Positions 9,105-20,699 of a stretch of DNA of 39,209 nt are shown piece by piece (position 1 is the stretch's first letter; the number at the start of each line of letters is the position of its first letter). This DNA is from Faecalibacterium sp. Its GTDB lineage: Bacteria; Bacillota; Clostridia; Oscillospirales; Ruminococcaceae. Location: NCBI GenBank assembly GCA_029264955.1, contig JARHYC010000024.1, positions 1-39,209 on the forward strand, read 5' to 3'. The position numbers and the translations under genes are program-made. The notes under the pieces were generated by a model. The model did not search any database. It saw nothing but the letters and a program-made list of their open reading frames with translations, and had not been told where the DNA came from.

Positions 9105-9350
9105 ATAATAATGCAAAAAAGGCTTTGATAGGGCCAAAGCATAGTTCTTGTTCCCCAGAGAGAAGGTCGCTTGCTGCAAGACCTTTGTGCGAGAGTATGC
9201 TAAGCCACCCTGGAGCTGCTGGCGAGAGCCGGCCGCAGCGCAGCGTTACTGCGTACGAGTGGCAGATGATTTCATCTGCAATTTGGGTGGTACCACGGAT
9301 GCTGAAATAGCTTTCGTCCCTGTTTTGGGGGCGGAAGCTATATTTTTTTG
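9105..9350 (+). promoter_or_regulatory. T-box riboswitch controlling alaS
   Basis: The leader reads the charging state of tRNA-Ala. The T-box sequence TGGGTGGTACCACGG is at 9284-9298, and its TGGT (9288-9291) would pair with the uncharged ACCA end of tRNA-Ala. The stem I hallmark CAGAGAG is at 9156-9162, and GGAGCTGCT (9212-9220) carries a plausible Ala GCU specifier; the exact specifier codon is inferred. The terminator stem runs 9307-9342 (ATAGCTTTCGTCCC with GGGGGCGGAAGCTAT) and is followed by seven T. With uncharged tRNA bound, the antiterminator forms and alaS is read. Confidence 0.92.
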
Positions 9351-17994: not shown

Positions 17995-18078
17995 GCCGTC
18001 GTGGCGGAACTGGCAGACGCCAGGGACTTAAAATCCCTTGCTGGCAACAGCGTACCGGTTCGATTCCGGTCGGCGGCA
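17995..18078 (+). tRNA. tRNA-Leu (anticodon UAA)
   Basis: 84 bases. The acceptor strand GCCGTCG pairs with CGGCGGC (one G-U pair) and the discriminator is A. The anticodon loop is CTTAAAA with anticodon TAA. A long variable arm is present, as in leucine tRNAs. The T arm is ACCGG-TTCGATT-CCGGT. The 3' CCA is not encoded (ACT follows the acceptor), so it must be added by the nucleotidyltransferase. It reads UUA and UUG codons. Confidence 0.95.
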
Positions 18079-18127: not shown

Positions 18128-18913
18128 TTATGCCAGATGAATTTCGCCCACACGCCACCCTGCTTCGGTGCGAACCAGTACGACAGGCACCGCATGGGTC
18201 GTTTCGGTGGGTGCGCCTTCCGGCGAAAAAGCATCCCGGAAGGTTGCGATTTCCAGAAAACGCACCTGGTTTGTCTCTGAGGAAATCAGAGTGTAGCCTA
18301 TGATTTCCCATTCACCGTTATAGCCGCTGGAAATATCGGCACACAACAATACACCGCTTTCGTCGGGTTTATATAAGGTGTCGTTTGCCCATGTGAAATA
18401 CTCCGGCATAAACACTTTCAACACTTCCTCCTGAAAGGTCTGCCATGTCATGGTGCTGCGATAATAAGTCGCTTCACCGGGTGCGGGGGAGGGAATACAG
18501 TCCCAGCACCAGGCATCCTTGCCGAAATAGTGGGGGAAGCTGATGGGTGGGTCCTGGAAAAAAAGTGTGGCGGCGTCGGTGGCTTTGTTGTACAGCACCA
18601 GCTGTTCTGCTGTCAGAAAGGCTTCGGGGCTTTCTACTGCATTGGCGATTTCTGCTTCCGTGGCCAGCGGTGCATCCTCTGCCCGGAAAAACGTTTTGGG
18701 TAAATCCAACTGTGGGTCTGGTTTTTCATCCGGTGCGGCGGTGTTGGCAGATACAGGCGTGCCAGTATCCTGTGCAGGCGGAGTGTCGGTGTGTTTGCAG
18801 CCGGTCAGTCCGCCACATCCGCACAGCAAAATCAGTACCATTGTTGCAGCAGGTACAGACAGCTTCCGCTGACCCCAAAACAGGACGACGTCATTTGTGT
18901 GAAAAGACCGCAT
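18128..18913 (-). CDS. Putative lipoprotein of unknown function
   Basis: 261 residues from the ATG seven bases after AGGAGGT; a GTG three codons earlier would lie inside the ribosome site. The N-terminus is basic, then a hydrophobic stretch ends in LTGCK, a lipobox, so the mature protein should be lipid-anchored to the outer face of the membrane. A Pro/Thr/Asp-rich spacer (about 40-70) leads to a globular part with WCWDC and a C-terminal domain that ends VLVRTEAGWRVGEIHLA, a form common in extracellular NTF2-like or DUF-type domains. I do not recognise the family. It is flanked by a tRNA and the divergent uracil permease leader and is monocistronic. Confidence 0.75.
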   Translation of the reverse strand: MRSFHTNDVVLFWGQRKLSVPAATMVLILLCGCGGLTGCKHTDTPPAQDTGTPVSANTAAPDEKPDPQLDLPKTFFRAEDAPLATEAEIANAVESPEAFLTAEQLVLYNKATDAATLFFQDPPISFPHYFGKDAWCWDCIPSPAPGEATYYRSTMTWQTFQEEVLKVFMPEYFTWANDTLYKPDESGVLLCADISSGYNGEWEIIGYTLISSETNQVRFLEIATFRDAFSPEGAPTETTHAVPVVLVRTEAGWRVGEIHLA

Positions 18914-18971
18914 AAAAAACACCTCCTAAAGCCACATTTCGCCGTTTGCAAAAGGGGCTGTTGATACCTTC

Positions 18972-19000
18972 ATATTACACGGTCGTTCCGGCGGCTTCAA
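18972..19000 (-). promoter_or_regulatory. Promoter of the lipoprotein gene
   Basis: On the minus strand TTGAAG (18995-19000), a 17-base spacer and TAATAT (18972-18977). The rest of the gap 19001-19163 shows no gene or further strong element. Confidence 0.55.
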
Positions 19001-19163
19001 GTGGGATTCTACCGAAAAAATGACGTTGTCTTTGTGCTTTTTTTCGCCAGCGGCGGTTTGGGTGCGCCGGCACGGCGAAAACTATGCATCAGTTTCATTT
19101 CACAGTTTCTTGCGCAAAAGCAGCGGTGCATTGTATCGAAGTTGCCAAAAATGGCGAAAAGTA

Positions 19164-19192
19164 TTGCAACCCGTCAGCTTTTCTGGTAGAAT
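19164..19192 (+). promoter_or_regulatory. Promoter of the uracil permease leader
   Basis: TTGCAA (19164-19169), a 17-base spacer and TAGAAT (19187-19192). Transcription should begin near 19199, giving a leader of about 145 bases before the permease start. Confidence 0.75.
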
Positions 19193-19228
19193 TCGTGAGA
19201 AAGTTTACAGGAAAAGGGAGGGTTCGTA

Positions 19229-19291
19229 ATGCGATACGGTCGAACGATTACAAAAACGAATGCTTTCCATATTTCCTATCGTCACTTATAA
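19229..19291 (+). CDS. 20-residue leader peptide of the uracil permease gene
   Basis: A short frame starts at ATG 19229 with a strong ribosome site GGGAGGG (19216-19222) six bases before it. It reads MRYGRTITK...SYRHL and stops at TAA 19289-19291. The stop codon directly touches the left arm of the terminator that begins at 19292. The last thirty bases are T-rich (14 of 30). Codons are not dominated by one amino acid, so it does not look like a his/trp-type sensor. The arrangement recalls the pyrBI leader of E. coli, in which a ribosome close behind RNA polymerase blocks a terminator. Function is inferred. Confidence 0.6.
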   Translation: MRYGRTITKTNAFHISYRHL

Positions 19292-19327
19292 AGAGGTGTC
19301 GCTATTTTGGCGATACCTCTTTTTTTG
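19292..19327 (+). terminator. Attenuator hairpin before the uracil permease gene
   Basis: AGAGGTGTCGC (19292-19302) pairs with GCGATACCTCT (19310-19320), one G-U pair, followed by seven T. It lies between the leader peptide stop and the permease ribosome site, so it must be overridden for expression. The bases GCGATAC of the right arm recur at 19231-19237 in the early leader, and this copy could pair with GTGTCGC of the left arm as an antiterminator. Confidence 0.8.
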
Positions 19328-19343
19328 AGAGAAGGAGGATATT

Positions 19344-20699
19344 ATGAGTGAGAAAATCGATTACACCCAGGGGATTTATGATGCAAAATCTCTGGGCACG
19401 CCCAAGCTGCTGGTGCTGGGCGCACAGCATATGTTCGCCATGTTCGGCGCAACGGTGCTGGTTCCGCTGTTGACCGGCTTGAGCGTTTCTACCACGCTGC
19501 TGTGTGCTGGTCTGGGCACGCTGCTGTTTCACCTGATTACCAAGGGCAAGGTTCCCGCATTTTTGGGTTCTTCCTTTGCGTATCTGGGCGGTTTCGGTAT
19601 CGTTGCACCCAAGCTGCTGGATGCAAGCGGTGAGGCTACCATCCCCAACAAGGAAATGCTGCCTTATGCTTGTGCTGCGGTTGCATTCTCCGGTCTGATC
19701 TATGTTCTGGTTTCCTTCCTGATCAAGACCTTTGGCATCCGCCGCATTATGAAGTTCTTCCCGCCGGTGGTCACCGGCCCCATCATCATTTCCATCGGCT
19801 TGATCCTGGCACCTACCGCTGTGTCCAACTGCCAGACCAACTGGCTGCTGGCTATCGTTGCACTGGGTACCGTTGTGGTCTGCAATATCTGGGGCAAGGG
19901 CATGATTAAGATTCTGCCCATCCTGATCGGCGTGCTGACCTCTTATGCCGTTGCTGTGGCTACCCATGCAATCGACTTTACTGCAATCAGCCAGGCTCCG
20001 CTGCTGGGTCTGCCTCTGCACACCTCTGAAATGGGTCTGTTCGCCATCGACGGCAGCGCAAACTTCATCAGCGCACTGTTCACCATCATGCCCATCGCAT
20101 TGGCAACCATGATGGAGCACATCGGCGACATCGCAGCCATCAGCGCAACTACTGGCCACAACTACATCAATGACCCCGGCCTGCACCGCACCCTGCTGGG
20201 CGACGGCGTGGCAACCACCATGGCTGGTCTGCTGGGCGGCCCCGCAAACACCACCTACGGCGAAAACACCGGTGTTCTGGCGCTGACCAAGATTTACGAC
20301 CCGCTTGTCATCCGCATCGCAGCTGTGTTTGCAATCCTGCTGAGCTTCAGCCCCAAGTTTGAGGCAATCATCAACACCATCCCTGCCGGTATCATCGGCG
20401 GTATCAGCTTTGTGCTGTACGGTATGATCTCTGCAATCGGTGTGCGCAACGTGGTCGAAAATCACGTTGACTTCACCAACAGTCGCAACCTGATTATTGC
20501 AGCGGTCATCCTGGTTTCCGCACTGGGCTTCAACTCTGTGGGCGGCATTACCTTCCACATCGGCACCATTGCCATCAATCTGTCCGGTCTGGCGATTGCT
20601 GCGCTGCTGGGTATCCTGCTGAACGCAATCCTGCCCGGCAACGACTACGAATTTGATGTAAATACGGCCGACGGCGAGGGCGCAAGCCTGCGTGTTTGA
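19344..20699 (+). CDS. uraA: Uracil permease (NCS2 family)
   Basis: 451 residues from the ATG after AAGGAGGA. Proton-coupled uptake of uracil across the cytoplasmic membrane; fourteen membrane segments expected for the family. NCS2 marks are GAQHMFAMFGATVLVP near residues 26-41, the proton/substrate Glu in MMEHIGD (about 254-260), and GPANTTYGENTG (about 299-310). These motifs favour uracil (UraA/PyrP) over xanthine or guanine transporters. It is transcribed alone, from a promoter followed by a leader peptide and attenuator. A terminator closes the unit. No pyr genes or PyrR are next to it. Confidence 0.92.
   Translation: MSEKIDYTQGIYDAKSLGTPKLLVLGAQHMFAMFGATVLVPLLTGLSVSTTLLCAGLGTLLFHLITKGKVPAFLGSSFAYLGGFGIVAPKLLDASGEATIPNKEMLPYACAAVAFSGLIYVLVSFLIKTFGIRRIMKFFPPVVTGPIIISIGLILAPTAVSNCQTNWLLAIVALGTVVVCNIWGKGMIKILPILIGVLTSYAVAVATHAIDFTAISQAPLLGLPLHTSEMGLFAIDGSANFISALFTIMPIALATMMEHIGDIAAISATTGHNYINDPGLHRTLLGDGVATTMAGLLGGPANTTYGENTGVLALTKIYDPLVIRIAAVFAILLSFSPKFEAIINTIPAGIIGGISFVLYGMISAIGVRNVVENHVDFTNSRNLIIAAVILVSALGFNSVGGITFHIGTIAINLSGLAIAALLGILLNAILPGNDYEFDVNTADGEGASLRV

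Follow-up and report, generated by a model that had tools for sequence, protein, structure and literature searches.

The stretch of DNA analyzed here (39,209 nucleotides from Faecalibacterium sp., hereafter the window) contains a permease gene, uraA, directly behind a short open reading frame that ends on an intrinsic terminator, and the question raised by this locus is what allows transcription to pass that terminator. The initial annotation, made from the sequence alone, had interpreted the arrangement as a leader-peptide attenuator, in which low UTP opens uraA through coupled translation. The parts that it had listed (promoter, leader ribosome site, 20-codon frame, terminator and uraA ribosome site) were all confirmed by the sequence, a promoter scan and folding (Table 1). 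The terminator, missed by a simple consensus scan, was picked up by folding of positions 19199-19330, which gave a 15-bp stem (z = -5.1; none of 200 shuffles as stable). The stop codon had been described as touching the left arm, and the fold bears this out with an overlap of two bases: the arm starts inside TAA, whose final two bases sit in the stem. The count of 14 T among the last thirty coding bases had to be corrected to 13. The GCGATAC repeat was indeed present at 19231-19237 and 19310-19316, but the antiterminator role assigned to it was not conserved: of 12 genus leaders compared, two (those of the window species and one relative) contained a 7-base repeat of the right arm. Nor was the longest exact upstream complement of the left arm longer than in shuffled sequences in 36 of 37 uraA leaders (shuffle share >0.05), a test in which the arm of one leader (L030) was misplaced.

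Table 1. Features of the uraA locus in the window (positions on the 39,209-nt stretch).
Feature	Positions	Strand	Basis
Promoter: -35 TTGCAA (19164-19169), 17-nt spacer, -10 TAGAAT (19187-19192) with TG before	19164-19192	+	Promoter scan
Leader-frame ribosome site GGAGG	19217-19221	+	Sequence, scored
Leader frame: ATG at 19229, 20 codons, TAA at 19289-19291; peptide MRYGRTITKTNAFHISYRHL	19229-19291	+	Sequence
Proposed UTP-sensitive pause region: 45 nt preceding the left arm, 16 T, also 14 A	19245-19289	+	Base counts
Intrinsic terminator: arms 19290-19304 and 19308-19322, T-run 19320-19326	19290-19326	+	Fold and terminator finder
uraA ribosome site AAGGAGG	19332-19338	+	Sequence
uraA, NCS2 permease, most similar to uracil permeases	19344-20699	+	TIGR00801 over cut-off; structure matches

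The genome to which the window belongs (G000; 1.88 Mb) is listed as 99.6% complete. Solved structures nearest to the uraA product were those of uracil permeases (E 8e-64), and the uracil permease model NF007995 was the best by E-value, yet below its own cut-off. A divergent frame of 264 amino acids (18128-18922, minus strand) faces uraA; it matched nothing in Pfam or NCBIfam at E 0.001, and its start resembles a lipoprotein signal by eye. Elsewhere in the window, a T-box leader over the Rfam gathering score (9116-9324, plus strand) and a tRNA gene (17995-18078, plus strand; RF00005) were also present.

The comparison with relatives was based on 31 Faecalibacterium genomes, some of them incomplete, and in 19 of these an orthologue of uraA was found (at least 81% identity). 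A leader frame with a terminator was found upstream of uraA in all 19. Each frame ended behind a U-rich stretch, either no more than 5 nt short of the arm, within the hairpin or beyond it. Outside the genus, the leader was present at 6 of 11 further uraA-like loci (L021-L031), and one of 20 distant permeases (L180) showed the same design; near that leader, a purine riboswitch lies on the opposite strand (L180 122-223, minus strand). Among 80 loci from named records, several of which duplicate the genomes above, a strict script recovered 18 with a leader, and one more (L109) was added by eye. At some loci outside the genus, e.g. L028 and L100, the leader terminator was not found by script.

The combined set comprised 37 uraA leaders, chosen for having the layout and in several cases by eye. 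The leader ATG lay 42-92 nt upstream of the arm in this set, and a promoter-like pair was found about 30 nt upstream of the ATG in most leaders and 70-85 nt upstream in some. The position of the stop codon varied: in 33 of the 37 the frame ended somewhere from 9 nt short of the arm's first base to 23 nt past it, and in the remaining four it read through the terminator, ending 66-78 nt past that base. These four frames (L005, L007, L014 and L095), which read through like E. coli pyrL, end near the start of uraA. The stop position was not quite as fixed as predicted; frame and hairpin were kept at all 19 genus loci. Relatives that keep the hairpin but lack the frame, which the initial annotation had regarded as evidence against its reading, were absent from the 19 genus loci and were found at four loci outside the genus (L022, L096, L102 and L112; at L022 the hairpin was recognised by eye alone). 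Three of these (L096, L102 and L112) are Gemmiger records, and in all four the hairpin and T-run lie close behind a promoter-like stretch. Against dinucleotide shuffles, the frame-over-arm layout occurred in 30 of 30 non-redundant uraA leaders, a set picked for that layout, where 2.5 were expected (the arm of L030 was misplaced in this test as well). With the ATG taken as fixed, chance alone would leave the frame open as far as the arm in 16.4 of the 30, so the openness of the uraA frames is on its own weak evidence.

The uraA leaders were rich in U. Over the 45 nt that precede the arm, the 30 non-redundant leaders contained on average 18.4 T, whereas windows taken from the uraA genes behind them averaged 10.4; the count exceeded the own-gene mean in every leader and fell in the top 5% in 23. 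Neither C, A nor G was raised, and the excess of U was seen at all three codon positions. Terminators at gene ends in the genus, used as controls, gave a mean of 10.1 T (95 of 97 terminators, some of which follow spurious frames and a few of which are leader terminators themselves), and the 12 genus leaders alone differed from them in T content (Mann-Whitney p = 8e-8). The leader of the window is itself only mildly U-rich and among the weaker ones, its T count being matched by 9% of the coding windows of its own gene.

No coding signal was detected in the uraA leaders from substitutions among close relatives, which were spread evenly over codon positions 1, 2 and 3 (95, 82 and 95, respectively; summed pairs, not independent). 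No conserved residue or codon run was visible across the peptides, in which Phe, Leu, Ser and Arg were the commonest residues. Moreover, insertions or deletions of one or two bases shift the frame between relatives (L013 vs. L015; L005 vs. L008), and the shifted frame is still open over the arm with a different stop codon. Tolerated frameshifts and an unconserved peptide would suit a mechanism in which the ribosome serves to block the arm and neither peptide nor codon does the sensing.

The feature proved larger than first noted, extending beyond uraA to the pyrC cluster of the same genome and recurring throughout the genus. The pyrC-pyrF-pyrK-pyrD cluster of G000 (Pfam) sits behind a leader, MGRFNVYFAFYNSCTAFPFLYWTT, whose stop codon touches a terminator. 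Genus pyrC loci were chosen independently of layout in 30 of the 31 genomes (G018 had no match at the threshold), and a leader frame with a ribosome site, ending on the same type of terminator, was found in all 30. Frame, hairpin and U-richness recur in 19 of 19 uraA and 30 of 30 pyrC loci of the genus, and the comparison with relatives proposed in the initial annotation speaks for its reading. In 29 pyrC leaders the stop codon ended on the first base of the arm (position 0) or on +1, and in one on +14; the U content was 18.9 T per 45 nt in 20 non-redundant leaders. Here a coding signal was present: over the last 20 codons, 114 synonymous single changes were counted in the called frame, where 59.7 were expected, and the other two frames showed none in excess (49 vs. 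57.8 and 42 vs. 50.1; 22 thinned sequences, pairs not independent). The end of the pyrC leader peptide was partly conserved, e.g. QFAAVFAVGSVFPFF and CFAAGFFAAGLFP. Outside the genus, the same design precedes pyrC in G050 and G055. G038 has it only if a TTG start is accepted, and in G042, where the ribosome site is weak, it was recognised by eye alone and not by the script. In G048 and G054, where pyrB leads, a leader of this design precedes pyrB, identified by the STRTR motif in G048 and by likeness to that copy in G054.

Other pyrimidine genes were arranged differently. On the same strand, about 130 nt downstream of pyrC-pyrF-pyrK-pyrD, lie pyrE (below its family cut-off) and carA. As this gap holds a promoter-like stretch in G000, pyrE-carA may or may not share the pyrC transcript, and may have a promoter of their own, separate from that of the cluster; by eye, no leader was seen directly before pyrE at 12 loci. 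The best-scoring pyrB copy in G000 is located behind a GntR-UTRA regulator (Pfam; L086, G000:C11, 5072-6888, minus strand), a placement that rests on likeness of upstream sequence in the other genus loci shown, and no leader was found directly before this GntR-linked pyrB in G000 or in those loci. The regulator is a possible second layer of pyrimidine control. Most of the loci examined for a second pyrB copy had coding sequence directly upstream of it (the start is ambiguous in L085, and L089 is the GntR-linked copy). The leader layout was absent at upp (6 genomes) and pyrG (5 genomes). The CTP synthase gene pyrG had no match in G000 and was present in the four genus relatives searched and in G050.

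Pyrimidine genes of Firmicutes are normally controlled by PyrR, and the distribution of this regulator was compared with that of the leaders. The initial annotation had seen no PyrR loop at uraA, in agreement with the absence of Rfam PyrR matches in the window (none at E up to 5 in 18900-19500), and had regarded the recovery of such a loop by covariance search as evidence against its reading; that search gave no PyrR element in the window or in any of the 31 genus genomes. A search of 100 genomes with the protein model likewise placed PyrR over the cut-off in none of these 31 and in 32 of 69 relatives outside the genus. The PyrR RNA search, run under stricter filters and with at most 32 candidates scored per genome, gave matches in none of the 31 and in 24 of the 69, six of them over the gathering score. 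Leaders at uraA or pyrimidine genes were found in 11 non-genus genomes (G038, G042 by eye, G047, G048, G050, G054, G055, G059, G066, G073 and G090), all without PyrR over the cut-off. Conversely, no leader with an ATG start was found in ten genomes with PyrR, where the region upstream of the permease was examined (G043, G053, G063, G077, G078, G080, G082, G087, G088 and G098); in G053, the script gave one GTG match, apparently at the end of the preceding gene. Sixteen relatives with no PyrR over the cut-off had no such leader at the regions examined, which were both loci in six (G041, G044, G076, G083, G095 and G097), pyrC only in five (G045, G058, G070, G089 and G093) and the permease only in five (G039, G062, G069, G086 and G099), indicating that loss of PyrR is not always accompanied by a leader. 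In G091, the PyrR RNA, pyrR and pyrC follow in a row, in the place taken by the leader at pyrC of the genus.

Quite probably, then, uraA and pyrC-pyrF-pyrK-pyrD (with pyrE-carA downstream) are each controlled by a pyrBI-like attenuator in which termination of transcription depends on translation of the leader, in a lineage without PyrR. The leader architecture at the two loci is well supported by the sequence comparisons. That UTP is the signal and pausing in U-rich sequence the sensor is suggested by U-richness together with the function of the genes, and the leader frames are presumably translated, a coding signal being seen at pyrC only. When UTP is ample, the polymerase would outrun the first ribosome, the hairpin would form and transcription would stop. 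When it is scarce, the polymerase would pause within the U-rich stretch of the leader, and the ribosome would catch up with it and cover the left arm on reaching the stop codon or its vicinity; with the arm covered, no hairpin would form and uraA or the pyr genes would be transcribed. In E. coli, control of pyrBI is tied to pausing that couples the ribosome with the polymerase; when a stop codon 28 bp ahead of a terminator was shifted to a distance of 5 bp, termination fell from about 90% to less than 10%, and a spacing of more than 27 nt was needed to free the terminator (PMC4824070). The layout in the window would fit this effect of stop distance, as a ribosome at the stop codon would cover the left arm if it arrived in time. 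Pausing in U-rich sequence would most naturally make that timing follow UTP, and uraA and the pyr genes would be the obvious genes to control in this way. Transcription and translation in B. subtilis are reportedly uncoupled (as Johnson is said to have described in 2020), so that coupling in Faecalibacterium, also a Firmicute, is not to be assumed. With somewhat less assurance we also consider it likely that PyrR was lost in the lineage of Faecalibacterium and its relatives, that a UTP-sensing regulon of leader frames arose independently at the pyr cluster and uraA, with UTP-dependent pausing coupling transcription and translation, and that what the uraA leaders conserve is U content and a frame that stays open and stops on the arm, and not the peptide.

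The same leaders could instead sense translation itself, through amino-acid charging or general capacity, with UTP uninvolved. Closely following ribosomes would suppress the terminator by way of a frame ending at the arm, and the prevalence of Phe, Leu, Ser and Arg in the uraA peptides could be read in this sense; we nevertheless find this explanation improbable, as the uraA peptides show no visible conservation of any residue or codon run, frameshifts are tolerated, U is raised at every codon position and the genes concerned serve uracil import and pyrimidine synthesis. An amino-acid attenuator of the leader-peptide kind was rejected, there being no conserved codon run in the uraA and pyrC peptides and no conserved antiterminator pairing. 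It is a little less probable still that an RNA-binding protein or small RNA attaches to the U-rich leader and so prevents termination, in which case the frame would be incidental or would only provide a link to translation. The U-rich stretch is, besides the terminator, a constant element, four non-genus loci carry a hairpin without a frame, and the openness of the uraA frames says little by itself; against this, the frames stay open over the arm despite frameshifts, and at pyrC the stop falls at the start of the arm in nearly all leaders and the coding signal is confined to the called frame.

That coding signal and the partly conserved end of the pyrC peptide would also be expected if the nascent peptide stalled the ribosome on uracil, UMP or another ligand, an explanation that appears very unlikely in view of the uraA peptides, which share no residue by eye despite serving the same pathway and show even substitutions over codon positions. 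An overlooked attenuator of the PyrR type or a riboswitch is the least credible of the alternatives and would be most surprising: the PyrR protein does occur over its cut-off in nearly half of the non-genus relatives, but neither it nor its RNA was found in the genus, and no Rfam match coincided with the leaders at 12 representative loci, where a tRNA and an opposite-strand purine riboswitch lie elsewhere. None of these rivals explains U-richness together with an unconserved uraA peptide as simply as the attenuator coupled to UTP-dependent pausing.

Among known systems, PyrR attenuation in Bacillus and many Firmicutes controls the same genes and, as in G091, from the same place, and the difference is that neither PyrR protein over the cut-off nor PyrR RNA was found in the genus. 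The E. coli pyrE attenuator behind rph resembles the present leaders in that translation stops only a few bases short of the terminator, and differs in that its leader frame is a full gene (rph) rather than a dedicated short frame. The histidine leader peptides of hisS and hisZ in Bacilli are also transcription attenuators of Firmicutes, but have a stretch of His codons, unlike the uraA and pyrC leaders, in which no codon is visibly conserved; a 2010 survey presented histidine leader-peptide attenuation in Firmicutes as the first of its kind beyond Proteobacteria and Actinobacteria, with the exception of ermC (PMC2965389). The closest parallel is E. coli pyrBI with pyrL, where a leader frame likewise extends over a terminator, a U-rich stretch lies just before the arm and pyrimidine genes are controlled. 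In pyrL, the same script placed the arm 88 nt after the ATG, within the range seen for the uraA leaders, with 14 T in 45 nt; the pyrL frame reads through and ends 47 nt past the start of the arm, whereas most uraA frames (33 of 37) end at the arm or in the hairpin. Faecalibacterium, a Firmicute, further differs in having two such loci, for biosynthesis and for uracil import, and the likeness proposed is one of working principle. Leader attenuation at two loci in Firmicutes without PyrR had no report among the open-licence matches listed, a coverage from which subscription papers were mostly absent. The working principle is thus known from pyrBI, and its independent two-locus version in PyrR-less Firmicutes is undescribed among those matches; if the reading is true, gut Firmicutes have separately evolved a mechanism for which enterobacteria are the textbook case, and it stands in the place that PyrR occupies in their relatives.
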